From the NCBI GenBank assembly GCA_032622095.1, contig CP136069.1, positions 105,800,278 through 105,864,277 on the forward strand: 64,000 nucleotides of DNA, written 5' to 3'. Origin of the DNA: Siphonodentalium dalli (taxonomy: Eukaryota > Mollusca > Scaphopoda > Gadilida > Siphonodentaliidae). The notes under the pieces are model-generated. The model saw nothing but the letters and a program-made list of their open reading frames with translations. It did not search any database and had not been told where the DNA came from. Each line of letters opens with the position of its first letter. The first letter of the stretch is position 1. Below, in pieces: positions 6,959 through 57,383 of this stretch. A program made the translations under genes and the position numbers.

Positions 6959-6963
6959 TTACC

Positions 6964-7853: not shown

Positions 7854-7861
7854 ATATATAT

Positions 7862-11259: not shown

Positions 11260-11268
11260 ATAGCAATT

Positions 11269-12068: not shown

Positions 12069-12390
12069 CACAATTACACCGGTGACGTAAACACATGTGC
12101 CAATCTTAGTTGTACTCTCGTAATTATCGGTACGATGAAACGGTGACGGAATCTGACGAGGTTTGCCGAATGTACAATCACCCAGTGAATTATCGATCGA
12201 CCATGCGATATCAAAAAACCAAAAGCTAGAAACACCACACTAGGTGGCGTAACAATACGTCCGACTACGAAGTACTGGATCCATTTCATGCTGAAATGAA
12301 AAAATATCACTGTCCTGTTACTATTACTCTGAACTATGCAAAAAGCGAACTGAATGCCTCAGTGAAACGAAAAATCACTACTTATTTTAA
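12069..12390. other. Unassigned spacer
   Basis: I see no gene or repeat with support in this stretch. Confidence 0.4.
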
Positions 12391-12895
12391 CCCTTCTGGT
12401 CGGCGGCCATTTTGGATCGGGGTGGTATGAAAGGGGTGAATATTTAGATTATCTTGGGGCCACCCAACATCACCATTTGTTTGACCTAAATCAGTCAATG
12501 AGTCGAGAAATGCCATGGGTGCCCTATTTGAACATCTCTGGATGGTGGCAATTTTGGATCAGGGTGTGGTGAATGTATTTAGACTGGCTTGCGGGTCACC
12601 CTACAACACCTTATGTTTGACCTAAATCGGATAAATGGGCCGAGTAAAGGCATGTGCGCTCTATTTGAACCCTTCTGGACAGCGACCATTTTGGATCTGG
12701 GTGAGGTGAATATTTAGATTGGCTTGGGGTACCCTAGAACACCCTTTGTTTGACCTAAATCGGTCAATTGACCGAGAAATGGCATGTGTGCCCTATTTGA
12801 ACCCTTCTGGACGGTGGCCACTTTGGATCGGAGTGGGATGTGTGGATAGAATACCTGTGGGGGGGGGGACCATACAACACCCTTTGTTTGACATA
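12391..12895. repeat. ~137-bp tandem repeat, nearly four copies
   Basis: Copies start near 12391, 12532, 12669 and 12801 with (A)CCCTTCTGGACGG(C)GGCCATTTTGG. They include TTTGACCTAAATCGGTCAAT. The last copy breaks at a G9 run near 12860. It resembles other ATGGC-type repeats in the window only in the CCATTTTGG word. Confidence 0.8.
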
Positions 12896-12899
12896 ATTA

Positions 12900-14465: not shown

Positions 14466-14470
14466 ATGAT

Positions 14471-15837
14471 CACCCCCGTGTACGTGGTATCGCCAAAACC
14501 GATGGTATCGCCAAAACCGAGAATATGGGAAAGTCATTTTCACGTATATGATATGGGGATATGTTTGTTTCTCACCGTAATACAGACATCGAGCATCGTA
14601 TGTGTATGTCCACACGAAGCATGAGTATTTATCCACCAGTTGTCAATCAGTTTTCCCAGATCAGACCATTAATTTTTTTTTGGCGAATTTTTTCAATGGT
14701 GTTTTTGCTTTTGCTCACTCAAATTTTCGAGAACAACCATTCACTACTATAGTTCCTGGACTTCCACGCTTCCAAAACAAATGCCGGTATATAGTTTAAT
14801 CTGTCAATGAAGCATAGGATTTGACAGAATTTAATAAATCCTTGTCGTTCTCAATATCCGCGCGATATGAAGGGACCACTGTCGGTCCAGAAAGATGCGA
14901 ACGGCACAGATGAAGATGCGCCAAACGCCGAGTTTCTGTGCAGTAAATATGCGTATTACTTAAGGAGTTGTGATGAGTTTTCGAGTGTTTTATGTGTATC
15001 TGAGACTGATCAATTGGACTGCGAATGTCAACTGAAATATGAATCCATAACATATTCGTAATAATGTGTGCATATTATATTATGAATGTATTTCAATTGA
15101 AATTAATTGAACATCCATCTCAGCATTCAGATTTGCGATCTCAATAACGTGAATGAATGATAACGCGATGCCTTGATCACACGCACGTGAATGCTGCCGT
15201 TCGCATGCATGCAGCTAATCGGATATTCGTTTACTATTAACATGCTTGGGGTTTGTATATAGACCACACATGCCAGACGACACGCTACGGCGTATCAACG
15301 ATTTGTTATAATCATGTTTATTTTACAGACTTTATGACTCGTTCCCACTCGAGTAGACCGTTACGCGACAATGAAACCGAATCATCTTATCGATTATATA
15401 TATATATTTATCACATAATTTGGCCATAAAAGCAGTTTCATAATTATCGGTAATAGACACGTTTAATATCAGCGCGTGCGATGACGTCACGGCGTTCTTC
15501 AAATAACTTGCGATCGCTGTAGTTTATGATTGTTGTTTTCGATGAATATTTCGCGTTGCTTCGGGTTTATTTGATCATGTGATAAAAGGTATCTCACACT
15601 CGTCCTATTTTATACGTAATTTATCAACCTCGTCCTCTAAATTCTATTTGAGCCTCGGTAAACCTCGGCTCAAATCGAATTTAGTGAACTCGGTTGATAA
15701 ATTCCGTATAAAATAGAAACTCATGTGAGATCCTCTATATATCATATTGCTCCAAATTATGCAATTCTGGCTTTTTTAAGAGTCATCAGATAAAATTGAA
15801 ACGATTCTATGTTAACACACTAAACATCCGAACATAT
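14471..15837 (+). mobile_element. Element X, left copy, with a nested insert
   Basis: This copy is homologous, in inverted orientation, to 59688-60701. It starts CACCCCCGTGTACGTGG and ends CATCCGAACATAT. The flanks are ATGAT on the left (14466-14470) and ATGAA on the right (15838-15842), a near-identical 5-bp target duplication. The ends are not inverted repeats of each other. A 5-bp duplication without terminal inverted repeats suits a solo LTR, but the usual TG...CA ends are absent, so the class is open. A duplicated phrase GGTATCGCCAAAACCGA is specific to this copy. A 65-codon frame (14602-14799) is shared with the other copy but shows nothing recognisable. Confidence 0.65.
15400..15737. 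mobile_element. ~335-bp MITE-like insert within element X, with hairpin
   Basis: It is absent from the other X copy, which reads straight through at the matching point, giving an empty site. The right half is a hairpin with ~68-bp arms (15590-15657 and 15663-15732). Each arm includes GAGCCTCGG or its complement, and the arms close on CTCACA and TGTGAG. It contains GTGATAAA and, at 15482, TGACGTCAC. Non-autonomous hairpin element of unknown superfamily. Confidence 0.65.
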
Positions 15838-15867
15838 ATGAACAAACACACAACAAAGTTATCCCTA

Positions 15868-16140
15868 CTAAAAGACGGGACGGGACGATTTTCCGGGACG
15901 GGACGGAACGATTTGTCTAAAAGACGGGACGGGACGGAACGAATATTTAAAAGTCATTTTATTCGGAAATGAAAGAGTTTAGAGGCACAAACATGGTCTC
16001 AACTTGTTTATTGGTATCTACTCTATACGAATGTGATGTTTTCCCGATACAATTGATCGTATGCTGAACTGTGGGCGTTCGAATAACGAAGCGTCGAAAT
16101 TAGGGAAATTTATCACTTCTGGGACGATAATCTAAACACT
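15868..16140 (+). repeat. Repeat Y, left copy, head segment
   Basis: It starts CTACTAAAAGACGGGACGGG and has several GGGACGGGACG words, then unique sequence. The same segment is present inverted at 57110-57383. Flanks differ at both copies, so Y is a dispersed element and not part of X. No ORF is seen. Confidence 0.7.
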
Positions 16141-17243
16141 AAAAGTCATATTTCGTTTACATTTTCATGTTTGGGTGACGGATTATTGCATAAAATGTTT
16201 GTCTAATATATACTAAATAGTAAAATAAAAGTTTGCACTTGTTTTCTGCTGATAAAAGTAGTGTTTTTATCGACGGGACGATGACATCCGCATTCATGAA
16301 AAATCTGCATTCCGCCGAACGAAAATCTTCGAAAATCTTAACAGAAAAACTAGCATTATGTTCACATTTTCATGTTTGGGTGACGGATTATTGCAGAAAA
16401 TGTTAGTCTAATATATACTAAATAGTAAAATAGAAGTTTGAACTTGTTTTCTGATGGTAAAAGTAGTGTTTTTATCGACGGGACGATGACACCTCCATTC
16501 TTGAAAAATCTCCATTCCGCCGAACGAAAATCGTCGAAAATCTTAACAGAAAAACTAGCATTACGTTCACATTTTCATGTTTGAGTAACGGATTTTTGCA
16601 GAAAATGTTTGTCTAATATATACTAAATAGTAAAATTGAAGTTTGCACTTGTTTTCGGCTGATAAAAGTAGTGTTTTTATCGACGGGACGATGACACCTC
16701 CATTCTTGAAAAATCTGCATTCCGCCGAACGAAAATCTTCGAAAATCTTAACAGAAAAACTCGCATTTCGTTCACATTTTCATGTTTGGGTGACGGATTT
16801 TTGCAGAAAATGTTAGTCTAATATATACTAAATAGTAAAATAGAAGTTTGAACTTGTTTTCTGATGGTAAAACTAGTGTTTTATCGACGGGACGATGACA
16901 CCTCCATTCTTGAAAAATCTCCATTCCGCCGAACGAAAATCGTCGAAAATCTTAACAGAAAAACTAGCATTATGTTCACATTTTCATGTTTGGGTGACGG
17001 ATTTTTGCAGAAAATGTTAGTCTAATATATACTAAATAGTAAAATAGAAGTTTGAACTTGTTTTCTGATGGTAAAAGTAGTGTTTTATCGACGGGACGAT
17101 GACACCTCCATTCTTGAAAAATCTCCATTCCGCCGAACGAAAATCGTCGAAAATCTTAACAGAAAAACTCGTCGCATTTCGTTCACATTTTCATGCTTGG
17201 GTGACGGATTTTTGCAGATAATGTTAGTCTAATATATACTAAA
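16141..17243 (+). repeat. Repeat Y satellite, ~207-bp units, first block
   Basis: About five units containing TCTAATATATACTAAATAGT, TATCGACGGGACGATGACAC and CCATTCCGCCGAACGAAAAT. The block stops inside a unit at ATATACTAAA (17243) and resumes as TAGTAAAATAG at 23789, so the intervening 6.5 kb is an insertion. Short open frames in the units are not preserved as coding. Confidence 0.85.
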
Positions 17244-17807
17244 CTAGCCGATGAGCCCGACGTTGTCCGGGCTATTCAAATAGCCGATGAGCCCGACGTT
17301 GTCCGGGCGACGTTGTCCGGGCTATTCAAAAACCAAATTTCAAGTCGATAGCTCCACCCGTTTCCGAGATCTAGTCTGCGCATGCGCGAAGCTGGTGTCG
17401 CACGGGCTCGGCGACCCGATAAAATTCGTATCCGGGGCAAGATAGATTCACATAGCAAATTTCAAGTCGATAGCTCCACCCGTTTCCGAGATCTCGTCTG
17501 CGCATGCGCGAAGCTGGCGTCGCACGGGCTCGGCGACCCGATAAAATTCGTATCCGGGGCAAGATACATTCACATAGCAAATTTCAAGTCGATAGCTCCG
17601 CCCGTTCCCGAGATCTCGTCTGCGCATGCGCGAAGCGGGCGCCGCACGGGCTCGCCAATACGACAACGTTCACCGCCTTGTCAAACTACACACACGTACC
17701 AAGTTTCGTCCCGATCGGTCGAGAATCGTAGATTTGTATTAATGACAGACAAACAAACAAACAAACAAACATACATACAGAAAGAGGTCTTCAAAATATA
17801 TATGAGA
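17244..17807 (-). mobile_element. Non-autonomous Helitron, family B, full-length 564-bp copy
   Basis: On the minus strand it starts TCTCATATATATTTTGAAG (5' end 17807). It passes a microsatellite-rich head and then two to three 120-bp units, and ends with hairpin AGCCCGGACAACGTCGGGCT, then CATCGGCTAG at 17244. The host sequence on the left is AAA and on the far right TAG, giving A|T insertion. The hairpin end is partly duplicated (17281-17330). Confidence 0.8.
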
Positions 17808-18026
17808 CTAGCCGATGAGCCCGACGTTGTCCAGGCTATTCAAAAACCGACGAAATTTGTATCCGGGGCAAGATACATTCACATAGCAAATTTCAAGTCG
17901 ATAGCTCCACCCGTTTCCGAGATCTGGTCTGCGCATGCGCGAAGCTGGCGTCGCACGGGCTCGGCGACCCGATAAAATTCTTATCCGGGGCAAGATACAT
18001 TCACATACCAAATTTCAAGTCGATAG
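17808..18026 (-). mobile_element. Non-autonomous Helitron, family B, second copy, 3' half
   Basis: CTAG at 17808-17811 directly follows the TC end of the first copy, so the two are head to tail with no host base between. The copy breaks at TCGATAG (18026) where the tail of LINE-1 begins. It resumes at 23327 with AGCTCTACCCG, the expected continuation. Confidence 0.8.
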
Positions 18027-18379
18027 TTTAGTTTAGTTTAAACATATTTATTACCAATAAGTATATAACAATACAGATTGGCATTGGGATTGGAGGACAA
18101 GTGCGATCCACTTATACATAACCCCCTCTCCCAATTGCCGTTATAACACTGATACATAATAATTGGGGTTGTCAACACAATAGGTATAACATATTTACAA
18201 GTGTATACATACAGTATATCATTTTATATTATTTGAAAAATAGTTTGTATAGTCTCACCACCCCACCAATTCTAAATAATTTCAATAATGATTTCAAGTA
18301 GCTGTTTTAAATGTGATACATGTACCTCATGGTGCATTGTTAACATTTTTACAATTTGCATTCAAATGATGCGAGCGTC

Positions 18380-18805
18380 TTAATAGAACTTTGTCGGATT
18401 TTCCTCTTGAGTTGTATCTCGTAAGTAATTTTGCACAGCTTTAAAGATATGTTCATTTTCTAATTGTTTTAAGTTCGGGTCCCCAAATATTAGTGTTTTA
18501 ACTGAATGTATATTAAAGCGCAGAAGATTATTACGAAGTGTAATTCTTTCTTCAAAGTGTAGGTGGCATTCAAAAAAATAGTGGAAAGCATTTTCTACAG
18601 AATGTCCACATCTACATGTAGCAGAAATTGCTATATAATTTTGAAGTTTATCAGCTTGTAGATTACTACATTCACACCTCAGTTTACAATGAAGGATGTT
18701 CAATAGCCGTTTACCATATGAAAAATATGTTGGTGGTTTTAATGGCTTAGTTACTAGTGCTTTCTTGAACCTATCGAGTGGAATGTTTCTTTCTTTTTTT
18801 TTCAT
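18380..18805 (-). pseudogene. LINE-1 ORF2 C-terminal part after a frameshift
   Basis: This frame continues the 992-codon ORF across an A9 run (18794-18802), with a one-base shift after DEKK. It carries the C-terminal zinc-knuckle-like segment CRCGHSVENAFHYFFEC, a pattern usual at the end of CR1/L2-type ORF2 proteins. It ends ENPTKFY. The overlap and frame difference with the main ORF show that one protein of about 1,120 residues has been split. A homopolymer error in the assembly is a real alternative to a biological mutation. Confidence 0.8.
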
Positions 18806-21749
18806 CCAATTTGTTCCAATCCATAACGCATGTGGGGAAGAAAGTTTTATCTGTTCTTTTGCTATTTGAAATGGGACGATTTAAATTTGATGCATTTCTC
18901 AGTTCGTAATCACATTTATCCTTAACCTTTGACGGAAGAAGCTGAGTTAAGTAGGCGGGGGCTTTGCCGTTTGCAATATTGTAAAATATACTCATTCGTT
19001 TAACATACCGCCTACTTTCCAGCCTCTCCCATCCGAGTTCAAAGAGCAACCTATCATGGGGGACCGATTTTGTACAACCTGTAACTATACGTGCAGCTTC
19101 GATTTGTATATCATCTAGTCTTTTTAATAGATAGTCAGGTGCTCCAAACCATACACAACTAGCATACTCCATTAATGGACGGACGTGAGATAAATATAAT
19201 ATTTCGAGAGTCTGACGGTTAAGAAGATATTTCAGTTTTCTCATTTGGGAAAGTCTTGCATAGGCTTTAGTACATATATTTTCGATATAAATATTCCATG
19301 ATAAATCTTCTGAGATGTCAATACCCAGGTGTGTGTGACTGTGCGTATAATCAAGGGTAGCTCCATTGAAAACTATATATGGTTTTATAATATTTTCTAT
19401 ACTTGTAAACAGCAGTACTTTAGTTTTGGCACTATTAAATTTGACTATCCACTTTTCAGCCCATTCATTGATTTTCCGCATGTCATTATTTATCGTCGAT
19501 TCTAAAGTTTGTAGATCAGAGTTTGCATTCATGAGACATGTATCATCGGCAAATAGTCTAGCTCGGGATTCTAAATTGTCCGAAATGTCATTTATATATA
19601 TGAGAAACATAAGAGGCCCGATTACGGATCCTTGGGGGACTCCTGCTGTTATAGGTGCGTATTTGGAAAAACTGGAGTTAATTCGTACGCGTTGTTTGCG
19701 ATTTTCAAGGTAGTTCACAGACCATTTAAGAATATCTCCTTTAATACCATATTTATCGAGCTTATGTATAAGACCACGATGCCACACTTTGTCAAAGGCT
19801 TTGGAAATATCACAGAATACTGCACATGTCGTATCACCTTTATCAAGCGCTTCTACTATATTATGAATAATTTCTATCAGTTGTAGTTCCGTTCCATGAC
19901 CGGGAATAAAACCAGACTGGTGCGAATATAAGAGATCTCTGGATTGCAAATGTATAAACATTTTATTGTGAACGATTCTTTCGAGAACTTTTCCAACACA
20001 ACTGAGAAGTGAAATGGGTCTGTAATTATTTGGATCTTGTGATTTTCCTTTTTTGAACAATGGTATGACATCAGCACGTTTCCATGTGTCCGGAAAACAA
20101 CAGCTCTTCAGCGATTTATTAAATATTATTTTGAGTGGTTTGCATACTGAGCTGTGGTTTTCCTTTAACATTTTGTTACTGATACCATCCGGACCATTGG
20201 CTTTATGTGTAGATAAAGATTTGAGAATAGTCGAAATTTCATCTTCGGATGTTTCTATCGAGCTTATATTTGATGCTGTTCTATTTGCGAAATTGGGAAT
20301 GTCAGATTCCGAACTGTCTATGGTGCTATTCATTATAAACATTTTGTTCAACAGTTCAGCCTTTTCTTCATCAGAATCATAAAATGAGTTGTTAAACTCT
20401 AGAGTTGGGATTTTACTCTTATTAGAAAAATTGTTAAGCAGCTGTTTCACGACATGCCAGAATTGCTTTGGACCTGTGTTGAGTTTCAAATTTTCATCCA
20501 GATTTAAAAAATATTTCTCTTTTGCAAATTTTTTCATGTTGTTTATCTTATTTCGAATTTGTTTATACTTGTCCCAGTGCATTTGTGTATTTGATTTTAA
20601 AGCTTTCTTTCTTAAGCGATCTCTTTTTCTTATATTTAATCTAATAGAGCTATCAAACCATGGTTTATCATTTGTCCTAATTGTAATTGTTTGAAATGGT
20701 ATATACTTTTTTGCAATATTAAGGAACATGTCTGTGAAAATGGTTACCATTGTATTTACATTTATGTTTGTGCCTCTTTCAGATAAAACATCTGTCCAAT
20801 TTATTGCATGGATCTCTGCATTCATATTTAAGTAATCACCTTTGGTATAATTCCATACCTGACGAATGCATGTCTCTGATTTACGATTGGGTGTAAGTAG
20901 TTCTATGGTGGTCGCATAATGGTCTGAGTGGCCCAGATCAATAGTGGATGCGTTAACGAATGATAGAGTATCACTTAACAAAATTGGGTCGATCAAGGTC
21001 GAGGAGCTTCCAGTCACACGAGTTGGGTTGGTGATAGCGTTCGTTAGAGTCCATCTACTTTTTATATCGTGCAATGGTCCTGATTGTTTCAAAAGGTCAC
21101 AATTTAAGTCACCGACAATAATCAGGGAGGGATTTATCGAAAGAGCGCTTTCAACAGAGGATTCTAGGTCTTTCCAATATGATTCTATACATTCCTTCTC
21201 TGATCGATAAGTCACACATAGCAGAATTTTTTGTTTCGAACCAATTTCGAACCAGAGTATTTCATCATCAAAGTCGAGTTGAGGAATATGTTTAAATACG
21301 AGACCGTCAGCAAAGTAAATTGCTAGACCACCTCCTCGTTCGTTTCTATCCAATCTAATTGGCCCCTGATAATTAGGAAGCAATATTTTTTCGCTTGGAA
21401 AACCAACATTTAAATGGGTTTCTGTAAAACAAACAATATCATATTCATCAATATGCTCAGTTAGTTTGGACAATTTGTGTCTTAGACTTCGGACATTATA
21501 ATGGAAAATTGATAATGTCTCCTTCTCACGCGGACCTGGATTTTTATGCACGTCATTGCTCAAAATAATCAAAAGCATACTTATTAGAACTGTACGAACA
21601 AGTAATTTTTGCATGTGTCCGAATTTAGGCAATTTAATGTTTGAAGTATTACCACGCCGAGTTTTGGAAAATTTATCCACATTGCACCTACTGGTACGTA
21701 AGTTGAAAAGCCCTATCGCCTGCCTATATTGCACTAGATTTGATGTCAT
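18771..21749 (-). CDS. LINE-1 ORF2: 2A motif, endonuclease, reverse transcriptase
   Basis: 992 residues from an ATG at 21749. An N-terminal leader with a hydrophobic stretch (about 49-63) runs into DVHKNPGP (66-73), a 2A-like sequence at which translation would separate G72 from P73. The endonuclease covers about 78-280: NVRSL, TETHL (109-113), RGGG, YR (181-182), GDLN (213-216), STLID and SDH (275-277). The reverse transcriptase spans about 500-790: IPLFKKG, NYRPISLL, DISKAFD (647-653), GVPQGS (703-708) and FADDT (733-737). There is no RNase H. The protein would nick chromosomal DNA and copy its own RNA there. It is open throughout and truncated only by the A9 frameshift near the end. The clade is CR1/L2-like from motif wording; that assignment is inference. 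Confidence 0.9.
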   Translation of the reverse strand: MTSNLVQYRQAIGLFNLRTSRCNVDKFSKTRRGNTSNIKLPKFGHMQKLLVRTVLISMLLIILSNDVHKNPGPREKETLSIFHYNVRSLRHKLSKLTEHIDEYDIVCFTETHLNVGFPSEKILLPNYQGPIRLDRNERGGGLAIYFADGLVFKHIPQLDFDDEILWFEIGSKQKILLCVTYRSEKECIESYWKDLESSVESALSINPSLIIVGDLNCDLLKQSGPLHDIKSRWTLTNAITNPTRVTGSSSTLIDPILLSDTLSFVNASTIDLGHSDHYATTIELLTPNRKSETCIRQVWNYTKGDYLNMNAEIHAINWTDVLSERGTNINVNTMVTIFTDMFLNIAKKYIPFQTITIRTNDKPWFDSSIRLNIRKRDRLRKKALKSNTQMHWDKYKQIRNKINNMKKFAKEKYFLNLDENLKLNTGPKQFWHVVKQLLNNFSNKSKIPTLEFNNSFYDSDEEKAELLNKMFIMNSTIDSSESDIPNFANRTASNISSIETSEDEISTILKSLSTHKANGPDGISNKMLKENHSSVCKPLKIIFNKSLKSCCFPDTWKRADVIPLFKKGKSQDPNNYRPISLLSCVGKVLERIVHNKMFIHLQSRDLLYSHQSGFIPGHGTELQLIEIIHNIVEALDKGDTTCAVFCDISKAFDKVWHRGLIHKLDKYGIKGDILKWSVNYLENRKQRVRINSSFSKYAPITAGVPQGSVIGPLMFLIYINDISDNLESRARLFADDTCLMNANSDLQTLESTINNDMRKINEWAEKWIVKFNSAKTKVLLFTSIENIIKPYIVFNGATLDYTHSHTHLGIDISEDLSWNIYIENICTKAYARLSQMRKLKYLLNRQTLEILYLSHVRPLMEYASCVWFGAPDYLLKRLDDIQIEAARIVTGCTKSVPHDRLLFELGWERLESRRYVKRMSIFYNIANGKAPAYLTQLLPSKVKDKCDYELRNASNLNRPISNSKRTDKTFFPTCVMDWNKLDEKKRKKHSTR
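21531..21554 (-). other. 2A-like ribosome-skipping motif in LINE-1
   Basis: It encodes DVHKNPGP; the 2A consensus is D(V/I)ExNPGP. The third position is H rather than E, a variant I recall from invertebrate LINEs. It directly follows a hydrophobic leader (LLVRTVLISMLLIIL), as in LINEs whose 2A region doubles as a signal peptide. Confidence 0.75.
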
Positions 21750-23326
21750 GGCGGATTAAATTGGAAATAACTCACGTTGCTGTTTACAGGCAGGCAATGG
21801 GGTATTGTGTACGAAACCATATTCGTGACAGCGTTCGCTACAAGTGTGTTCGTTAGAAGAGTGTGATGAGTGGTGAGACAAACAATCATAAATTCGAAAT
21901 ACAAACAAAAAACAAGATACATGTATGTATAAATAAACATATATAATAACATATTTTGCGTGATCATGAAAATGACACGCTTGTTCCCGGGTTGATTAAT
22001 CACTATAAATTATGAAGCAAGCCGATTATAAAGAATTCAGTATGTTAGAATTTATTTTGTGTTCGTTAGTCTTAGTGCCAATCGTTGTGGAATATATTGT
22101 ATTATTACCTTTAATCCCTCTACAATTTAAATGGCATTTCAATTTCGATGAGAATTTCAAGTCGCATTATTTTAATTTCACATTATTTTGAAATACATAA
22201 TGTTTTTGATCTGGTCACAAAATGTACCCGTTTGGGACATTTGTACAGGCATACTAATTTGTGCTGTTTTTTGTTGTTGGAGCAAATAGAGTTACCTCCT
22301 TCATCTCGGCAAATAGGGTTTCCACCTTGATCTATTCATTTGGGCCATAATACTCAGATATTCGTTTATTATAAATGGTCATCGTTATGAGACTCTTCCC
22401 CAGTCAGTTTGTAATACAGGGGTGGATGGAATATTAATATAATAATAAATTGGTAAACCAAATCCGGACATTTACGGGACCACCCCTACACACCCAACAT
22501 ACTCAAAGCCAGACCTAGTGTGCAGACCCCCTTTAAATTCATATACGGTACATTTATAAAGCAAACACACATAATAATAGATATAATAATGAACATAATG
22601 AAAATGGCTGTTCCTGAAACTATTTTGGTATCTGATTGTCGCATATAACTCCGATGTGTGCGGCCATGACCTTTAGTAGACGATGGCAAATTATGACGAG
22701 GGATTGCATGTGAGTTGCTTATTTGTTATTTAGGTCAGGACACCTTTTGTGGGACACGATATTTCTGGTCCATGCTTTGTCAATAAAGTGTCTGGAGCTG
22801 AGACTTGAGTAGAATATTCATGTTTCTTTATTTTCTCCGGTTTTCTGCGTTCGTTCAAAATGTGTGATACTGGATGTATTACTGCACAGTCTGTCTGTCT
22901 GTAGACTGGGTGTATGACTGCATGGTGCAGTTTATACCAAAAATGGACAGAGATGGTATCCACATTTAATTTCGGACTGGTCTCGTGGTAGTGATTTCGT
23001 GAGTATGTCGGTACAGGCACAGGGGTTTGACAAGATGATAGTAAATAAAAATATAATTTGTAATTTAATTTGAAATATAATTAAAACAATTAAAATAACT
23101 AAATAATTAAGTAATTAAATAATTTATTTTAATTATTTAATAAAATAACCAAATAATTAAGTAATTTAAAATATATTTTGTACACTTGTGTATTTATTAT
23201 TAATAGTATTTATTATCATTCTGACAAACTCCTGTGGCACAACTTGATCTGATTAGTACTTTGTGCGACCCACTGTAGATGCTTTTGACTGAGGAAAAGT
23301 ATACCATATCACAGTAGCCATGGAAC

Positions 23327-23720
23327 AGCTCTACCCGTTTCCGAGATCTGGTCTGCGCATGCGCGAAACTGGCGTCCCACGGACTCGGCGACCCGATAAA
23401 ATTCGTATACGGGGCAAGATACATTCACATAGCAAATTTCAAGTCGATAGCTCCACCCGTTTCCGAGATCTCGTCTGCGCATGCGCGAATCTGGTGTCGC
23501 ACGGGCTCGGCGACCCGATAAAATTCGTATCCGGGGCAAGATACATTCACATAGCAAATTTCAAGTCGATAGCTCCACCCGTTTCCGAGATCTCGTCTGC
23601 GCATGCGCGAAGCGGGCGCCGCACGGGCTCGCCAATACGACAACGTTCACCGCCTGGTCAAACTACACACACGTACCAAGTTTCGTCCCGATCGGTCGAG
23701 AATCGTAGATTTGTATTAAT

Positions 23721-23756
<36 letters not shown>

Positions 23757-23788
23757 TACAGACAGAGGTCTTCAAAATATATATGAGA
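23327..23788 (-). mobile_element. Non-autonomous Helitron, family B, second copy, 5' half
   Basis: It resumes the element broken at 18026. It contains three partial 120-bp units (the palindrome TGCGCATGCGC occurs near 23354, 23476 and 23598), a (CAGA)n tract at 23723-23765 and the minus-strand start TCTCATATATATTTTGAAG at 23788. The next bases, TAGTAAAATAG, continue the Y satellite exactly. Confidence 0.8.
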
Positions 23789-24952
23789 TAGTAAAATAGA
23801 AGTTTGAACTTGTTTTCTGATGGTAAAAGTAGTGTTTTTATCGACGGGACGATGACACCTCCATTCTTGAAAAATCTCCATTCCGCCGAACGAAAATCGT
23901 CGAAAATCTTAACAGAAAAACTCGTCGCATTTCGTTCACATTTTCATGCTTGGGTGACGGATTTTTGCAGAAAATGTTAGTCTAATATATACTAAATAGT
24001 AAAATAGAAGTTGGAACTTGTTTTATGATGGTAAAAGTAGTGTTTTTATCGACGGGACGATGACACCTCCATTCTTGAAAAATCTCCATTCCGCCGAACG
24101 AAAATCGTCGAAAATCTTAACAGAAAAACTAGCATTATGTTCACATTTTCATGTTTGGGTGACGGATTTTTGCAGAAAATGTTAGTCTAATATATACTAA
24201 ATAGTAAAATAGAAGTTTTAACTTGTTTTCTTATGGTAAAAGTAGTGTTTTTATCGACGGGACGATGACACCTCCATTCTTGAAAAATCTCCATTCCGCC
24301 GAACGAAAATCGTCGAAAATCTTAACAGAAAAACTAGCATTATGTTCACATTTTCATGTCTGGGTGACGGATTTTTGCAGAAAATGTTAGTCTAATATAT
24401 ACTAAATAGTAAAATAGAAGTTTGAACTTGTTTTCTAATGGTAAAAGTAGTGTTTTTATCGACGGGACGATGACACCTCCATTCTTGAAAAATCTCCATT
24501 CCGCCGAACGAAAATCGTCGAAAATCTTAACAGAAAAACTCTCATTTCGTTCACATTTTCATGTTTGGGTGACGGATTTTTGCAGAAAATGTTAGTCTAA
24601 TATATACTAAATAGTAAAATAGAAGTTTGAACTTGTTTTCTGATGGTAAAAGTAGTGTTTTATCGACGGGACGATGACACCTCCATTCTTGAAAAATCTC
24701 CATTCCGCCGAACGAAAATCATCGAAAATCTTAACAGAAAAACTAGCATTATGTTCATATTTTCATGTTTGGATGACGGATTATTGCAGAAAATGTTAGT
24801 CTAATATATACTAAATAGTAAAATAGAAGTTTGAACTTGTTTTCTGCTGGTAAAAGTAGTGTTTTTATCCACGGGACGATGACACATCCATTCTTGAAAA
24901 ATCTCCATTCCGCCGAACGAAAATGTAGGGCGGCCACATGATGTTTTCTTCT
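23789..24952 (+). repeat. Repeat Y satellite, ~207-bp units, second block
   Basis: Five and a half units continue the block that ended at 17243. The last unit runs into AAAATGTAGGGCGGCCACAT at about 24921, a junction also present in the inverted Y copy near 56325. The right end is cut by the foldback element. Confidence 0.85.
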
Positions 24953-27900
24953 GGAAAGACGGGTGTACCTATAAAACGCTGAATCAGCAGCTGATCAGCA
25001 GGTTATCACCTAAAACGCCGATCAGCAGATTTCCCGATTTTAGTTTAACTCAAATATAGCGGCGATGGCGGGTTGTAGGTTGTGCAAATGGCACGTAGAA
25101 TATGTGTTATATACCAATACAAGAAGGAGACACATTTAGATCGCCCGCTCTGTCCGTTCATCAGTTCAAAATCCCGATCAGCAGTTCATATCGAGCAGAT
25201 CAGCAGATTATCACCTAAAACGCTGATCTGCAGATTTTCCGAGTTTAGTTTAACTCAAATATAACGGCGATGGCGGGTTGTAGGTTGTGCAAATGGCACG
25301 TAATACATGTGTTATATGCCAATATAGGAAGGGGACACATTTTGACCGGCATCTATGCCAGTTCAGCAGTTCAAAATCCCGTTCAGCAGCTGCAGTTCAG
25401 TAGATTATCGCGAACGCAGTTTAACTCAATTGTAACGAAGTTAGTTGAGTTTAGGTGGTGTAAATGACTTGTAATTAATGGGACATATCCAAGTACATGG
25501 AAAGAAAACCATTTGGCCGACGTCCACCCCAGATCAGCAGTTCAAAATCCCGTTCAGCAGTTCATATCGAGCAGTTCAGCAGATTCCCCGAAGGCGGTTT
25601 AACCGAATTTTAACGAGGATAGTCTGGTATGTGTTGTGCAAATGACATTTTATCGATGGTCCATAAAGAAATACAGGAAGAAAACACGACTTGGCCGACA
25701 TACACCCAGATCAGCAGTTCAAAATCCCAGTCACCACTTTATTTGGGGAAGATCAGCAGATTATCACATAAAACGCTGATCAGCAGATTTCCCGATTTTA
25801 GTTCAACTCAAATATAACGACGATGGCGGGTCGTAGGTTGTGCAAATGACTTGTAATTAATGGGACATAACCGGTTTCATGGATATAAAATTATTTGGCC
25901 GACGTCCACCCCAGATCAGCAGTTCAAAATCCCGTTCAGCAGTTCATATCGAGCAGTTCAGCAGATTCTCCGAAGGCGGTTTAACCGATTTTTAACGAGG
26001 GTAGTCGGGTATGTGTTGTGCAAATGACATTTTATCGATGGTCCATAAAGAAATACAGGAAGGAAACACGACTTGGCCGACATACACCCAAGATCAGCAG
26101 TTCAAAATCCCGCTCAGCACTTGATTTTGGGACAGATCAGCAGATATATCACCTAAAACGCTGACCAGCAGATTTCCCGATTTTAGTTTAACTCAAATAT
26201 AGCGGCGATGGCGGGTTGTAGGTTGTGCAAATGGCACGTAGAATATGTGTTATATACCAATACAAGAAGGAGACACATTTAGATCGCCCGCTCTGTCCGT
26301 TCATCAGTTCAAAATCCCGATCAGCAGTTCATATCGAGCAGATCAGCAGATTATCACCTAAAACGCTGATCTGCAGATTTTCCGAGTTTAGTTTAACTCA
26401 AATATAACGGCGATGGCGGGTTGTAGGTTGTGCAAATGGCACGTAATACATGTGTTATATGCCAATATAGGAAGGGGACACATTTTGACCGGCATCTATG
26501 CCAGTTCAGCAGTTCAAAATCCCGTTCAGCAGCTGCAGTTCAGTAGATTATCGCGAACGCAGTTTAACTCAATTGTAACGAAGTTAGTTGAGTTTAGGTG
26601 GTGTAAATGACTTGTAATTAATGGGACATAACCAAGTACATGGAAAGAAAACCATTTGGCCGACGTCCACCCCAGATCAGCAGTTCAAAATCCCGTTCAG
26701 CAGTTCATATCGAGCAGTTCAGCAGATTCCCCGAAGGCGGTTTAACCGATTTTTAACGAGGATAGTCGGGTATGTGTTGTGCAAATGATATTATATCGAT
26801 GGTGCATAACACAATACAGTAAGAAAACACGAATTGGCCGACATACACCCCAGTTCAGCAGTTCAAAAGCCCGTTCAGCACTCTATTTGGGGCAGTTCAG
26901 CAGAATTTTCAAAACTCAGTTTAACTGATTTTTAACAAAGATATTAGCGTATAGGTGATGCAAATGTCATTTTGTCGATGGCTCATAACCGGGTACATGG
27001 AAATAAATCCATATGGCCGACGTTCACCCCAGATCAGCAGTTCAAAATTCAGTTCAGCAGTTCATATCGAGCAGTTCAGCAGATTCCCCGAAGGCGGTTT
27101 AACCGACTTTTAACGATGATAGTCGGGTATGTGTTGTGCAAATGACATTATATCGATGGTCCATAACCAAATACAAAAAGAAAACACGAATTGGCCGACA
27201 TACACCCCAGTTCAGCAGTTCAAAGGCCGTTCGGCACTCTTTTTGGGGCAGTTCAGCAGAATCTCCAAAACTCAGTTTAACTGATTTTTAACAAAGATAT
27301 TCTGGTATAGGTGATGCAAATGGCATTTTATCAATGGCTCATAACCAAGTACATGGAAAGAAAACCATTTGGCCGACGTCCACCCCAGATCAGCAGTTCA
27401 AAATCCCGTTCAGCAGTTCATATCGAGCAGTTCAGCAGATTCTCCGAAGGCGGTTTAACCGAATTTTAACGGAGGATAGTCGGGTATGTGTTGTGCAAAT
27501 GACATTATATCGATGGTCCATAACGAAATACATTAAGAAAACACGATTTGGCCGACATACACCTCAGTTCAGCAGTTTTGGAGATTCTGCTGAACTGCCC
27601 CAAATAGAGTGCTGAACGGGCTTTTGAACTGCTGAACTGGGGTGTATGTCGGCCAATTCGTGTTTCTTACTGTATTGTGTTATGGACCATCGATATAATG
27701 TCATTTGCACAACATATACCGACTATACTCGTTAAAAATCGGTTAAACCGCCTTCGGGGAATCTGCTGAACTGCTCGATATGAACTGCTGAACGGGATTT
27801 TGAACTGCTGATCTGGGGTGAACGTCGGCCAAATGATTTTCTATCCATGAAACCGGTTATGTCCCATTAATTACAAGTCATTTGCACAACCTACGACCCG

Positions 27901-29511
27901 CCATCGTCGTTATATTTGAGTTAAACTAAAGTCGGGAAATCTGCTGATCAGCGTTTTAGGTGATAATCTGCTGATCTGCCCCAAATAGAGTGCTGAACGG
28001 GATTTTGAACTGCTGATCTGGGGTGTATGTCGGCCAAATCTTGTTTTCTTCCTGTATTTCTTTATGGACCATCGATATAATGTCATTTGCACAACACATA
28101 CCCGACTATCCTCGTTAAAATTTGGTTAAACCGCGTTCAGGGAATCTGCTGAACTGCTCGATATGAACTGCTGAAACGAATTTTGAACTGCTGATCTGGG
28201 GTGGACGTCGGCCAAATGATTTTCTATCCATCAAACTGGTTATGTCCCATTAATTACAAGTCATTTGCACAACATACGACCCGCCATCGTCGTTATATTT
28301 GAGTTAAACTAAAATCGGGAAATCTGCTGATCAGCGTTTTAGGTGATAATCTGCTGATCTGCCCCAAATAAAGTGCTGAACGGGATTTTGAACTGCTGAT
28401 CTGGGGTGTATGTCGGACAAGTGGTGTTTTCTTAATGTATTTCTTGATAGACCATCGATAAAATGTCATTTGCACAACACATACCCGACTATCCTCGTTA
28501 AAAATCGGTTAAACTGCGTTCGGAGAATCTGCTGAACTGTTCCGGTAAAGTGCTGAACTGGATTTTGAACTGCTGATCTGGTGTGGATGTCGGCCATATG
28601 GCTTTATTTCCATGTACCCGGTTATGAGCCATCTATAAAATGCCATTTGCATCACCTATACGTGAATATCTTTGTTAAAAATCAGTTAAACTGAGTTGGA
28701 AATTCTGCTGAACTGCCCCAAATAGAGTGCTTAACGGGATTTTGAACTGCTGAACTGGGGTGTATATCGGCCAAATCGTGTTTTCTTACTGTATTTCGTT
28801 ATGGACCATCGATATAATGTCATTTACACAACACATACCCGACTATCCTCGTTAAAAATCGATTAAACCGCCCTCGGGGAATCTGCTGAACTGCTCGATA
28901 TGAACTGCTGAACGGGATTTTGAACTGCTGATCTGGGGTGGACGTCGGCCAAATGGCTTTCTATCCATGTACCTGGTAATGTCCCATTAATTACAAGTCA
29001 TTTACACCACCTAAACTCAACTAACTTCGTTACAATTGAGTTAAACTGCGTTCGCGATAATCTACTGAACTCCAACTGCCGTACTGCTGAACGGGATTTT
29101 GAACTGCTGAACTGGCATAGAGGGCGGTCAAAATGTGTCCACTTCCTATATTGGCATATAACACATGTATTACGTGCCATTTGCAAAACCTACAACCCGC
29201 CATCGCCGTTATATTTGAGTTAAACTAAACTCGGAAAATCTGCAGATCAGCGTTTTAGGTGATAATCTGCTGATCTGCTCGATATGAACTGCTGATCGGG
29301 ATTTTGAACTGATGAACGGACAGAGCGGGCGATCTAAATGTGTCTCCTTCTTGTATTGGTATATAACACATATTCTACGTGCCATGTGCACAACCTACAA
29401 CCCGCCATCGCCGCTATATTTGAGTTAAACTAAAATCGGGAAATCTGCTGATCAGCGTTTTAGGTGATAACCTGCTGATCAGCTGCTGATTCAGCGTTTT
29501 AGGTACACCCG
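24953..29511. mobile_element. 4.56-kb foldback transposon with tandem-repeat arms
   Basis: The ends are inverted repeats (CGGGTGTACCTA..AAACGCTG), and nearly the whole element folds on itself about a centre near 27576. Both arms are tandem arrays of 175-205-bp units containing AGTTCAAAATCCCG, TTCAGCAG and TGCAAATG. The flanking TTTTCTTCT (24944-24952) and TTTTCTTCC (29512-29520) look like a 9-bp target duplication. The inverted Y copy near 56310 has the empty site, with one TTTTCTTCC. The left end has seven extra bases (GGAAAGA) not mirrored on the right. Drosophila FB elements have this plan. There is no transposase; the small frames (60-93 codons) repeat with the units and are not genes. 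Confidence 0.85.
25030..26780. repeat. 1,143-bp higher-order duplication inside the foldback left arm
   Basis: The block beginning near 25030 recurs at 26173 almost without change over about 600 bp; the encoded short frames at 25082 and 26225 are identical. The intervening units are more diverged. This points to recent unequal exchange or replication slippage within the arm, and it makes the left arm longer than the right (about 2.6 versus 1.9 kb). Confidence 0.8.
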
Positions 29512-29707
29512 TTTTCTTCCTGTATTTAGTCCGGGAGCTAATAGAGGTATACCCTTGCACCCCCCCCCCCCTGGGACTTAACTTCACCCCACTCATTTTG
29601 TTCCTTATTATGTCCTTCAACTTTTAAGCAATGTTAACAAGAAAAAAAAGTGGCCGTGTAGACTCCAGACAAGATGGCGTCCATCATGGCCGCCGTTTTT
29701 CAGACCA
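29512..29707 (+). repeat. Repeat Y, left copy, tail segment
   Basis: It matches 56158-56310 inverted: TGTATTTAGTCCGGGAGCT, then CACCCCACTCATTTTGTTCC, then AAGATGGCGTCCATCATGGC and GTTTTTCAGACCA. This copy has about 40 extra bases with a C-rich run (29538-29580). After GACCA the two copies differ, marking the end of Y. Confidence 0.75.
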
Positions 29708-30900
29708 GACCTTGATCAGTTTTATGCAAATTAACGCGGGAAAATCTTGTAAAATGTATACAAATGTATATATTTTCGTGAAGCTAAGACATAATGACAC
29801 TTTTTTGGGCCAAAATTGAAACTCACTATCTATGATGGCCGCCAAAATGGCCGCCGGAAGTTGAAAATATGACATTTTTTCACAAATATCTTCTAGATCA
29901 ATTCATGCTGTTTGGAACTGGTTGAGTAATACGACTTTATTTAGAGTTTTGTATATTAACTGATCATTGGAGCAATTAAATGTGCAACTATTGGGATCCT
30001 AACCCCTTCTGATCCCTCAAAAATTCGATTTTACAGAACGCGGTACAACATTTTACAAAAAATCACAATTGGGATTCTAGTCATATTTCAACAAGAAATG
30101 AAAAGAACATTGTAATGTAAGTGAGGCATATCATTACCAATGAATATTCCAACTCTCTGGAACCAAAAATCTTACCTTGGCTCAAAATGGCTCCGAAAAT
30201 AGCCGCCAAAATATGGAAAATGGTAAATACTGCCCCAGGGTGTCCTGCAATCGCTTAGAAGTTGTGGTTGATGTATACAATTGGCTAATCTGTATTCTAT
30301 ACATTGCATACTAACATGTCTAATGCACCATGAATCATTTTTACTATTGTCACCACTGACATCACCAGAAATATGGGATTTTTCTGTCACAAACTTGACA
30401 AAAATATTGGCAAAAATTATCTTTTCAGGGTTCGACCATTTGTTCAAGTAAAATGCAACTATCTTTGGTATCAAAGGTGTTTATTGTTTTGGTCTATCTC
30501 AAGTGTGTCACACTGTGGTGTTTAAAGACTAAAATGCTCAAGATGGCTTCCAAAATGGCAACCAAATTTATAAAAAGTTAAAAGTTAACATATCCCGAAC
30601 ATTATTCTCTGCGTTATCCAAAAAAGATAGCAAATTGTGACTCACTTGGTTATTTTATGTATTAGTTAATTAACTGACAAATACGTTCTATTATATTTGT
30701 TCCAGTTCCGTATGGGGCATGACAAATTCATTTTAAAGTTGCAGTATGGAATTTTGCAAGGAACCTCTTTTGTGATTCTGGCCATATTATTGAAAAGAAA
30801 TGGGCAGAACTTTGAGACGGAACTGAGATGAACCATCATGATATGTGGGTATTCAGGCCCACTATGATACAAATTTGTCAACTGGATACAGAGTGGAAGC
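29690..30900. repeat. Dispersed repeat rich in ATGGC(N)GCC words, copy 1
   Basis: From about 30170 it matches 62885-63560 in direct orientation (CCCAGGGTGTCCTGCAAT, GGTATCAAAGGTGTTTATTG, CAAGATGGCTTCCAAAATGG). It holds about ten ATGGC(C/T/G)(G/T)CC or AAGATGGC words in 1.2 kb. No long ORF is seen. It leads directly into the minisatellite at 30900, as does the other copy. Confidence 0.75.
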
Positions 30901-33169: not shown

Positions 33170-35152
33170 TTACTTTCTACAATCTCGGCATTCCGCGTTG
33201 TCACAAGTTACTGAGCTATTATAGTGTGATTGCACATTTGTACGTATGGAAGATTTAAAGATGGTTCTGCTAGCTGCAAATCTGTGTGCTGTGTCCAAGC
33301 AGTTCCACACATACGGAAATGAGTATTTCGGTAGAATTTGAGAGAAATTCGTCCTTGGAATTGTAGTAGCCAAGTTGCCGGACTGTCGTGTTGTTGATAT
33401 TGGTGTATACTTAAATAAACTTTCGAAAGACGGGGGAAGATATTTGTTTTTCCAATCATACATGAACAATGCGATTTGAAGATGATACAGGTCATGAAAC
33501 TTTAGAATTTTTTGAGTTTTGAACAACGGCTCTGTGTGACTGCGATATCTTTTGTTGCATAATATCCGGACTGCTTTTTTCTGTAGCCGAAAAAGAGACC
33601 CTGATGCTGAAACGTGTCCCCAGATTATTATTCCGTACAGGAGATGACTGTGAATTAAGGAGAAGTACAGAGTTTTTAGTGCACTTTTGGGGAGGAATCG
33701 TTTGGCTTTACCTAGACAGTATATTGCATGTGATATTTTTCTGGTTAGCATTGATATGTGGTACTTAAAAGTAAGATTTTCGTCAATGATTATGCCAAGG
33801 AATTTAAGTGATTTTTCTTGGTTTTGATTACTTACACGAACTAGTTCCTTTTTATTCAATTTAATTCGCAGATCTGCCCATTTAAAATCGTTATTTTGTG
33901 GATGCAGCAACATATATTTAGTTTTTGATTCATTGAGTGATAGTCGGTTACTACAGCACCAGCGGTATACTTTATCTAGTTCATCGTTTATCTTATTCTG
34001 AATGGTTTTAGAGTTATTCCCTGACATGTATAATGTTGTGTCGTCAACAAATGAAAGAACTTTGAGATTGGTGCTGTTGGGCATGTCGTTGACATACATT
34101 AGAAATAGGATGGGGCCAAGGATATACCCCTGTGGTACTCCACATGTCATAGTCAACATTCCCGATTGATGATCATGGACTTCTACATATTGTCGCCTGT
34201 CACGTAAGTAACTTCTGAACCAGTCATTAGCGATTCCCCTTATTCCATAGTGATCGAGCTTTCTAAGTAAAATTTCGTGACTTATGGTGTCAAAAGCTTT
34301 TGATAAGTCTAAGAAAATGGCAATGGTGGAGTCACGGGTTTTTTTGTCATTACATTCCGCTACATCTTCGAGAAGATGTATAAGTGGATGAATGGTAGAA
34401 TGTTTCTTACGAAAGCCATATTGGTGTTCATGAAGAATTTTATGTTTGTTGAGGAACGATGAAAGCCGAGCATTGATTATTTTTTCCATTATTTTGGAAA
34501 ATGCAGGTAATATGCTGATTGGTCTATAATTTTCAATCTGATCGCGTTCCCCTTTTTTGTATATAGGCATTATTCTAGATATTTTCATTTTCTCGGGCAC
34601 AAGTCCATGGGCAAATGAGAGATAAAAAATATGCGTGAGTGGTCCAACCGTTTCGTTAATTGTTTGTTTCATTAGTTTCACGGATACATCGTTTATATCT
34701 GTGCAAGTTTTATTAGATAATTTCGAGCAAAGTGATATTAGTTCATCTCTGTTTGTTGGGAAAATAAAAAGGTTATTTTCATACTGCCCCGGTAGGTAAT
34801 CGATGATGTTCATCCCTGGAATCTGTGTTACATTGTTTGCGGTAATTCTTCCAATGTCAGCGAAAAATGTGTTGAATGCGCATGCGATAGTTGTCGGGTC
34901 AGACAGTTTTCCGTTACCGGTACCATTTGAAAATTCGGTAGGAAAGGTATTCAAACCATGAGATATTTTAAGGGCTTCTTTCAGTATCGTCCAAGTGCGT
35001 CGCATGTTTGCTTGATTTTCTTTGAGAATATTGTCGTAATAATGATTTTTACTCCGCCGTTTTAATTGGTTGTATATTCTGCAGTATATTTTGTATCTAC
35101 CTATGTTTTCATCTGTTGGAAATTTTAACTTATTGGTGTACAATTTGTTTTT
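33170..35152 (-). pseudogene. LINE-2 ORF2, reverse transcriptase half
   Basis: Open for 660 codons in the same frame as the endonuclease half, separated from it only by TAA at 35155-35153. Residues below count from 35143. RT landmarks: IMPIYKKGERDQ, NYRPISILPAF, FLDLSKAFD (277-285), CGVPQGYILGP (334-344) and the catalytic FVDDT (365-369). Here Val replaces the common Ala, and Tyr replaces the common Ser after GVPQG. The C-terminus ends with a cysteine cluster, CDNAECRDC. There is no RNase H. A downstream restart is unlikely because the first codons are not ATG. With the stop, the copy would give only an endonuclease unless the stop is read through. Confidence 0.85.
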
Positions 35153-36286
35153 TTATACTGACGATTGAATGAGTCCTTTAGTCATCCACGGTTCTCGTTT
35201 AGTGTACTTGTTTGGTGGTTTGCGTTTAATTTTTGGAAAGGCTTCTTCGAAGAATAAGGAGTAGCTGCGCAAAAAGGCGTTATATGCTAGGTCTGCGTCT
35301 TGGTATATGAAGACCTCATCGAATGAATGATTGTTCAGAAGACTTTTAAATTTTGTTATATTGTTTTCGGACATTATTCTAGTTGTTGTTTGATTTACGT
35401 CATTCTTTGTATTGGTATCATTGGTTTCGACGTGGAATGTACCAAAGTGGTCTGAGACGTCCGATAGGATGATTCCACTGTGAACTTTGCAGTTGGATAT
35501 GCTATTTGTGTAAATGTGGTCAATGAGAGTCGCTGAGAATTCAGCTACTCTCGTTGGTTTAGTAATCACTGGCATGAATCCACGTTCGAACATATTACTG
35601 ATGAAAGCATTTGTTTTACTGTGTGAATCAGAATGCAGTAAGTCTATGTTAAAATCACCAACGATGTATACTTTTGAATTTAATTCGTTAAGTTTGATAA
35701 TAACATTGTCAAGCTGATTAGAGAAGGTTTCTATGTCAGCGAGCGGGGCAGTGTTAGGTCGGTATATAGAGCCTACAATGTGTGAATTTTTTTTGCCCGG
35801 ATTTATTTCTACAAATAGTGTTTCAATTACATGGGGAATGAATATCGAGAGGTCATTTCTAGTTTTATATTTAAGGCTACTTTTAATGAAAATTCCGACC
35901 CCACCCCTTCCGTCATCATTGTCCGGACGAGATTTGTACTCGAATGGGTGATATCCTTCTAATGTGAAAGTATCCCTTACCCTAAAAACTTCAGATAGCG
36001 CAATTATGTCAAATAAGTTTTCCCCTGATTGTTGAATATTACATAGGAGGTCAACAAATGAGTCCCAGTTCGCTGTCAAGCTTCGACAGTTTAGCCCAAG
36101 GAGAGACGTCGTCTTCCTTTCAATTGACAGTTTCTCCTTGATTTGAAGTGGGGCATAATAATCTGATTGGTGGTTCAGAATGTCGTAAATGTTACTCCCA
36201 TTATCACAGTCATCGCCCTTATATACGGTGGCAAAGTTATAGTCATCACCCTGGAGCTCACCCACAGATAGTCTATCGATAACCAT
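35153..36286 (-). CDS. LINE-2 ORF2, endonuclease half
   Basis: 377 codons from ATG at 36286 in a good context (ACAATGG). An apurinic-type endonuclease fills about residues 60-295: LLGLNCRSL, ALSEVFR, GRGGVGIFI, SIYRPN, VGDFNIDLL, ATLIDHIYTN and SDVSDHFG. The tail KREPWMTKGLIQSSV is the usual linker into the RT, after which TAA follows. Known LINEs carry EN and RT in one protein, so this is a broken ORF2 unless recoded. Confidence 0.85.
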   Translation of the reverse strand: MVIDRLSVGELQGDDYNFATVYKGDDCDNGSNIYDILNHQSDYYAPLQIKEKLSIERKTTSLLGLNCRSLTANWDSFVDLLCNIQQSGENLFDIIALSEVFRVRDTFTLEGYHPFEYKSRPDNDDGRGGVGIFIKSSLKYKTRNDLSIFIPHVIETLFVEINPGKKNSHIVGSIYRPNTAPLADIETFSNQLDNVIIKLNELNSKVYIVGDFNIDLLHSDSHSKTNAFISNMFERGFMPVITKPTRVAEFSATLIDHIYTNSISNCKVHSGIILSDVSDHFGTFHVETNDTNTKNDVNQTTTRIMSENNITKFKSLLNNHSFDEVFIYQDADLAYNAFLRSYSLFFEEAFPKIKRKPPNKYTKREPWMTKGLIQSSV

Positions 36287-36480
36287 TGTCTGAAATTATA
36301 TTAGAGTTATATATTTTACCCCAAATCAGGAATGTACTTTCATTTTTCGGCATATTTAGTACCGTGTCCGTGTAAAGATACCTAACATGCGCATCCTTGT
36401 CACACAACAATATCATCTTGAGCAGTACGGAATAACAGAACATAAAACATTTACAGAACAATTTGATGGGAATCATATAC

Positions 36481-56157: not shown

Positions 56158-57383
56158 AGTGGTCTGAAAAACGGCGGCCATGATGGACGCCATCTTGTCT
56201 GGAGTCTACACGGCCACTTTTTTTTCTTGTTAACATTGCTTAAAAGTTGAAGGACATAATAAGGAACAAAATGAGTGGGGTGAAGCTCCCGGACTAAATA
56301 CAGGAAGAAAACATCATGTGGCCGCCCTACATTTTCGTTCGGCGGAATGGAGATTTTTCAAGAATGGAGGTGTCATCGTCCCGTCGATAAAAACACTACT
56401 TTTACCATCAGAAAACAAGTTAAAACTTCTATTTTACTATTTAGTATATATTAGACTTTGCAATAATCCGTCACCCAAACATGAAAATGTGAACATAATG
56501 CTAGTTTTTCTGTTAAGATTTTCGTTCGGCGGAATGCAGATTTTTCAAGAATGCGGATGTCATCGTCCCGTCGATAAAAACACTACTTTTATCAGCAGAA
56601 AACAAGTGCAAACTTCAATTTTACTATTTAGTATATATTAGACAAACATTTTCTGCAAAAATCCGTCACTCAAACATGAAAATGTAAACGTAATGCTAGT
56701 TTTTCTGTTAAGATTTTCGACGATTTTCGTTCGGCGGAATGGAGATTTTTCAAGAATGGAGGTGTCATCGTCCCGTCGATAAAAACACTACTTTTACCAT
56801 CAGAAAACAAGTTAAAACTTCTATTTTACTATTTAGTATATATTAGACTAACATTTTCTGCAATAATCCGTCACCCAAACATGAAAATGTGAACATAATG
56901 CTAGTTTTTCTGTTAAGATTTTCGAAGATTTTCGTTCGGCGGAATGCAGATTTTTCATGAATGCGGATGTCATCGTCCCGTCGATAAAAACACTACTTTT
57001 ATCAGCAGAAAACAAGTGCAAACTTTTATTTTACTATTTAGTATATATTAGACAAACATTTTATGCAATAATCCGTCACCCAAACATGAAAATGTAAACG
57101 AAATATGACTTTTAGTGTTTAGATTATCGTCCCAGAAGTGATAAATTTCCCTAATTTCGACGCTTCGTTATTCGAACGCCCACAGTTCAGCATACGCTCA
57201 ATTGTATCGGGAAAACATCACATTCGTATAGAGTAGATACCAATAAACAAGTTGAGACCATGTTTGTGCCTCTAAACTCTTTCATTTCCGAATAAAATGA
57301 CTTTTAAATATTCGTTCCGTCCCGTCCCGTCTTTTAGACAAATCGTTCCGTCCCGTCCCGGAAAATCGTCCCGTCCCGTCTTT
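56158..57383 (-). repeat. Repeat Y, right copy, shorter and uninterrupted
   Basis: Inverted relative to the left copy: tail segment 56158-56325, about 3.8 satellite units to 57110, and head segment to 57383 (GACGGGACGGGACG words). It contains the empty target sites of the foldback (single TTTTCTTCC near 56305) and of the Helitron pair. The left and right copies share no flanking sequence. Confidence 0.85.

Follow-up and report, generated by a model that had tools for sequence, protein, structure and literature searches.

Foldback elements have long inverted arms. In FB of Drosophila, these are composed of tandem units that are tens of bp long, the target duplications are 9 bp, and some copies include NOF. 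Tetris, a foldback element of Drosophila virilis, is described as having ~220-bp tandem units and 8–10 bp duplications, and its membership of Mutator was suggested (PMC4079207). In the Mutator/Foldback element Tm1 from Meloidogyne, 45 of 53 complete elements are reported to have duplications of 8–10 bp, most commonly 9 bp (PMC3169594). Rehavkus, which lies near the MULEs, has been reported from arthropods and annelids (PMC6446971).

The stretch of DNA examined here (64,000 nucleotides, referred to as the window) includes an element that is very probably a non-autonomous foldback DNA transposon of the arm-array type. Its closest published relatives appear to be Tetris, judged by description and not by sequence, and Tm1. 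As far as this could be tested, it is a candidate for a new family within the already known foldback kind.

The window element shares tandem-unit inverted arms and 9-bp duplications with FB but differs from it in the size of its units (171–207 bp as against tens of bp) and in that some FB copies carry NOF. Tetris is similar in its inverted arms of tandem units, its duplication length, its reported lack of conserved ORFs and its variable unit number, and its units are found in satellite-like arrays too (PMC4079207). However, Tetris is described with inner and middle domains, an outer flanking domain that can be as long as 866 bp, and arms of no more than 1,735 bp (PMC4079207), whereas in the family described here the array begins no more than ~50 bp from the end, most of the copies read lack a middle, and arms reach ~9 kb. 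An outer non-repeated flanking domain is absent, the terminal T unit being itself an array monomer. Tm1 has foldback-type composite terminal repeats and is reported to show no target preference, but its units are 13–15 bp and some of its members are known to encode a putative transposase (PMC3169594). Rehavkus likewise has 9-bp duplications and long terminal repeats, one of which is preceded by a minisatellite, but it encodes a PHD-finger transposase (PMC6446971), and none was seen in the foldback copies here.

Structure of the element in the window

The earlier note had described inverted arms made of tandem arrays, and both features are borne out; the element has the long inverted arms composed of tandem units that characterize foldback transposons. 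The outer 418 bp (24972–25389 versus 29084–29501) pair in inverted orientation at 99 %, and the stretch 24500–30000 contains 168 inverted pairs with a length of 20 nt or more. The left arm comprises 14 monomers and the right arm 10 together with a 58-bp part, each monomer being 171–207 bp, and the arms meet at 27577/27578 (Table 1). All 36 occurrences of the motif TCAGCAG lie in the left arm, and all 28 of CTGCTGA in the right. Both arms terminate in GGGTGTACCTAAAACGCTGAATCAGCAG, and the array units between the termini form one family of ~178/205 bp. Between unit types, as many as about half of the positions differ (~50 % for T and C), and units of the same type share 87–98 % identity between left and right arms. 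Inward from unit four, the pattern is mostly one of C alternating with B, D or E, and hence the array is largely one of dimers. The segment 26147–26446 is 99 % identical to 25004–25303, and the T' unit (L06 monomer) shares 85 % identity with the terminal unit (L00 monomer). The hybrid make-up of T' suggests that it is a trace of unequal exchange inside the arm, by which the left arm may have grown.

Table 1. Positions of the features described (in the window unless another locus is named)
Feature	Position	Strand	Details
Left target-site duplication GTTTTCTTC	24943..24951		identical to 29511-29519
Nine extra bases TGGAAAGAC	24952..24960		between left duplication and left element end
Whole foldback element	24961-29510		4,550 bp; start set from other copies beginning at GGGTGTACC
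Left arm	24961..27577	+	T A B C E C T' A B C D C D C (monomer dissection)
Hybrid unit T'	26094..26300	+	head of an E-like unit joined to body of the terminal T unit
Head-to-head arm junction	27564..27600		without middle domain; 11-bp perfect inverted repeat, 11-bp loop
Right arm	27578..29510	-	outside to inside T A B C D C E C E C + 58-bp part of D unit
Right target-site duplication GTTTTCTTC	29511..29519		abuts element end
Unoccupied paralogous target	56304..56312	-	GAAGAAAAC on + strand
Five copies with perfect duplications	C8; C9; C5; C7; C9		28.8 kb; 18.1 kb; 13.6 kb; 10.7 kb; 3.3 kb, respectively
Other centres, shared bases			L010 4 bp; E10 8 bp; L027 24 bp; E28 inner junction 4 bp
Other centres			E13 4 bp filler; L024 at yet another unit position
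C8 nested palindrome	~9332-23582 of joined stretch L017-L019 (C8:20718400-20748399)		
C1 divergent C2H2 zinc-finger ORFs	L021 4519-5118; 6389-7018	-; +	

Though the element itself stands, its boundaries, previously placed at 24953–29511, were shifted to those in Table 1, because other copies begin at GGGTGTACC. Similarly, the 9-bp flank claimed for both sides is present, with 9 of 9 bases identical, but its sequence is GTTTTCTTC and not TTTTCTTC(T/C). The nine extra bases at the left end had been overlooked. They are also present in two further copies of this insertion, in C7 and C1 (see below), and are of the same length as the target duplication. Given this equal length, the simplest idea is that one old duplication was carried over, and the extra bases may, as a guess, be an old target duplication brought along from a donor site. 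A donor carrying them would correspond to the pattern TGGAAAGACGGGTGTACCT.

No ORF of at least 120 aa (stop to stop) was found within the window element, and an Rfam search and a tRNA scan each gave no matches. One arm pattern each was searched in the IMG/VR and GTDB genomes, with 0 and 0 matches, as expected for a eukaryotic repeat. The element is non-coding and most likely moved in trans by a Mutator-type transposase.

Other repeats occupy parts of the window. A satellite array with a 225/456-bp unit, in which the 225-bp period recurs ~25 times at 94 %, lies at 50253–55906, and three LINE-type elements with endonuclease and reverse-transcriptase domains are found on the minus strand (18771–21755, with one open frame of 994 aa, 33170–36295 and 45028–48615). 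At 6464–7904 (minus strand), a reverse-transcriptase ORF (RVT_1, below the Pfam cut-off) lies beside an ORF that has no Pfam match and that we take, from its motif, to code for a GIY-YIG nuclease; this is perhaps a Penelope-like element.

Other copies and the target duplication

The earlier note had proposed that further copies be sought by the terminus and their duplications measured. A search of the genome (2.23 Gb in 9 contigs) that allowed up to 2 mismatches found the 28-bp terminus 172 times and the reversed pattern 0 times. A BLAST search with the terminal 148 bp yielded 670 candidates, 40 of which were scored. Pairing was examined for 103 ends, made up of 100 of the 172 terminus matches and 3 from BLAST, and neighbours within 35 kb gave 18 inward-facing and 0 outward-facing pairs, with lengths of ~0.76 to 28.8 kb. 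The remaining 67 of the 103 ends are unpaired, in part because 72 of the 172 matches lie outside the set considered. Two very short end pairs, of 761 and 954 bp (C4:229545873-229546633 and C4:47146031-47146984), are possible MITE-like derivatives of the family. In C2:147010701-147079750, two facing termini are 69 kb apart and may be the ends of a single giant element or belong to two separate ones.

Both ends were read for nine copies. Of these, five are independent insertions with perfect 9-bp duplications directly at GGGTGTACC (sequences CACAATGAG, CATTTTAGG, GTACATAGC, CTAGCAAAC and ATAACTGTC). Three are the window insertion and its two duplicates, all of which include the nine extra bases, and the last, L010, has both ends and no target duplication. 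In their outer 700 bp, E28, E13 and L027 (left end) share 98.7–99.3 % identity, although their sites are unrelated. In 132 comparisons of outer 700-bp segments between elements, the mean identity was 91.3 % and the minimum 71.9 %; the left end of E10 and the right end of L027, where the unit order is different, account for the low values. With termini held in common, independent 9-bp duplications at unrelated sites, and the empty site described below, the claim that this is a bona fide mobile unit holds. Points against it are that L010 lacks a duplication, that the left duplication of the window copy lies nine bases away from the element end, and that the L009 duplication is imperfect (see below).

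For a non-autonomous element of this type, a transposase coded elsewhere would recognise the terminal T unit, cut the element out and reinsert it with a 9-bp stagger. The arms would lengthen and shorten via unequal exchange among units, as the unit order indicates, and in most copies any middle would have been removed by internal deletions, which fused the two arms at differing positions. In the window, the element inserted a single time, next to a 205-bp tandem repeat, and the locus was subsequently copied with the element inside it.

The duplication length and the architecture make it probable that the mobilising transposase belongs to the Mutator/Foldback group. A transposase from another superfamily with 8–9 bp duplications (P/Galileo-like, Merlin-like or hAT-like) acting on the same foldback plan is possible though unlikely. 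Galileo, which has been placed in the P superfamily, is described as having foldback-like arms, and no transposase of any sort was identified in the copies examined here. Pfam six-frame scans of interior sequence from three long copies (half of the C1 and C8 palindromes and the 7-kb interior of E18, see below) detected no transposase domain, a result that also tells against the Mutator reading. However, target duplications are 8 bp in P and hAT elements and 7 bp in Galileo, and this 7–8 bp length is not matched by the exactly 9 bp found in the five copies with a duplication at their ends. A duplication of 9 bp falls within the range of 8–11 bp given for MULEs (PMC6446971).

The window insertion and its empty site

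The insertion in the window was also found at two further loci, in C7 (L009) and C1 (L020–L022). L009 is 98.5 % identical to the window over 6,034 bp, and its duplication matches in 8 of 9 positions, one copy being off by one base. The C1 locus is 99.0 % identical to the right flank of the window insertion over 3,253 bp. The outer arm segments of the window element share 98.7–99.6 % identity with their C1 and C7 counterparts and 97.3 % with their own partner arm; a single insertion was thus followed by copying of the locus. Hence, on sequence comparison, the window, C7 and C1 copies are a single insertion spread by segmental duplication.

The C1 locus (L020–L022, C1:179720500-179743300) additionally includes a tandem duplication with an offset of 9,878 bp and 99.9–100 % identity, which took in flank, one foldback arm and part of a nested palindrome. 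A 205-bp tandem repeat, present in the window at 16125–17243, 23776–24924 and 56331–57129, borders the foldback insertion. In L025, ~21 copies of this repeat (4147–8486) lie ~100 bp from a truncated foldback arm, and the repeat that surrounds this array starts near CTACTAAAAGACGGGACGGGACG.

An empty site had been reported at about 56305. It is indeed found there: a single copy of the 9-bp target is present, neither terminus nor the nine extra bases are seen, and the flanks continue on both sides. On the left, 500 bp, much of it tandem repeat, match the flank of the insertion at 92 %, and on the right 28 + 126 bp match at 100 % with an indel of ~42 bp between them. The empty target also resembles an arm unit, namely the tail of a C unit, and ranks first of 1,480 80-mers with a score of 30, the next being 22. 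The 80-mer centred on the window target scores 26 against the arms, and 1,000 shuffles of the window's site gave a mean of 12.3 and a highest score of 21. This likeness is not explained by plain insertion. The five other targets score 12–14, like the shuffles; the likeness is therefore a property of the window locus alone, and self-targeting as a general habit is ruled out.

The site at 56304 could alternatively be the product of a deletion or an excision and not a site that was never occupied. About 36 bp of it are like an arm unit (31 of 36 positions, by eye, against 28024–28059), as a remnant would be. Furthermore, excision of the MULE Muta1 in yeast, where a flanking duplication was present, is described as ~90 % precise (PMC5225508), and a precise excision would look like an empty site. 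However, the single target without terminus or extra bases counts against this alternative, and the unit-like stretch flanks the target on both sides, indicating that the stretch is older than the insertion. We consider deletion or excision improbable here.

Arms, centres and interiors

Unit order was determined for ten copies, giving 19 ends, as L028 contributes a single end. At 16 of the 19 the outer order is T A B C, six of the 19 belonging to the window insertion and its two duplicates; the exceptions are E10, which lacks A on the left, L027, which has extra A units on the right, and L028, with T A B E. In complete copies, the shortest arm is the right one of L027, at ~0.9 kb, and the longest the right one of E18, at 9.4 kb. 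The 18.1- and 28.8-kb copies show recurring higher-order repeats, A A B C D C D C among them. Among eight places inspected, seven distinct centre junctions were seen. One is common to the window and L009, where as many as 14 bp are compatible with either arm, and those of L010, E10, L027, E28 (inner), E13 and L024 are all at mutually different unit positions (Table 1). The centres would thus have arisen from internal deletions joined by short homology or by end joining.

Most copies read have no middle, and E13 (13.6 kb) is array throughout except for 492 bp. E18 has 7,050 bp between its arms. Part of this interior (7398–9265 in L015 coordinates) is a dispersed repeat that is also in the window (10228–12136). 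A non-array segment at L015 2216–2495 recurs in the L028 arm (517–715, 2025–2223 and 3533–3731), with 82 % identity over 280 bp and 92.7–93.2 % over 177 bp, and could be a remnant of the family's native inner part. As the 7-kb interior of E18 possibly includes a remnant middle, the middle is not absent from every copy. The only domain found in this interior in a Pfam scan was a GDSL hydrolase, in an ORF at L015 4849–5436 (plus strand; GDSL/SGNH, E 1.2e-8). At a further locus, an ORF at L023 3–626 (plus strand) has a weak, below-cut-off match to Ulp1-type C48 proteases.

The C1 (11.6 kb) and C8 (28.8 kb) foldback copies each hold a zinc-finger palindrome. The one in C1 is an inverted structure of 7.4 kb that has a minisatellite at its centre, and the one in C8 is 14.25 kb long and 99.7 % self-complementary. 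The frames of the C1 palindrome are 200 and 210 aa, the longer having one C2H2 finger (Pfam E 1e-4, below cut-off), and related frames of 139 and 102 aa are present in C8. There are 3,285 candidate places for the 210-aa protein genome-wide, 150 of which were scored; for these 150, neighbours within 7 kb are divergent in 48 cases, convergent in 1 and on the same strand in 4. The nested palindromes, two members of which were read at sequence level, look like an abundant group of palindromic transposons. No literature combining two of the terms palindromic transposon, C2H2 zinc finger and 6-bp target site duplication was found.

Since both the C1 and the C8 copies contain such a palindrome, it might be taken for the element's own coding middle, and the carriers for the autonomous form. 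However, each palindrome lies inside an arm unit, has its own ends (TGATGA..TCATCA) and is flanked by its own 6-bp duplication (CTGGAA and CATATC). The window includes the matching uninterrupted unit for the C1 case, and relatives of the protein, largely as divergent pairs, are on every contig among the matches listed. The palindrome as the coding core of the foldback element is ruled out by its own ends, its own duplications and the uninterrupted window unit, and carriers as an autonomous form are accordingly very improbable.

That the arms are an ordinary satellite array, inverted by chance and immobile, is scarcely credible: long copies do have arrays of 5–9 kb and higher-order repeats, such as the 1,508-bp period of the L028 array, but the fixed termini, the empty site and the 9-bp duplications at five unrelated sites refute it.

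For the foldback transposon, a further idea is that the arm, and not the whole element, is the lasting unit, forming its own head-to-head centres and growing into higher-order satellite arrays of up to ~9 kb that still move as a single unit with 9-bp duplications; most of the copies read lack a middle, and independent copies have centres of their own. We regard this as rather doubtful, as the 7-kb interior of E18, the first part of which is possibly a native remnant, lowers its odds. If true, it would mean that a transposon is actively spreading satellite DNA.

In this family, a single sequence makes up both transposon arms and satellite arrays, and copies of many lengths are available in one chromosome-scale assembly. 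With termini, unit order and duplications all readable, the growth of arms and the formation of centres can be followed. Whether foldback arms seed dispersed satellites, a link that has been argued for Tetris (PMC4079207), can be traced as well.
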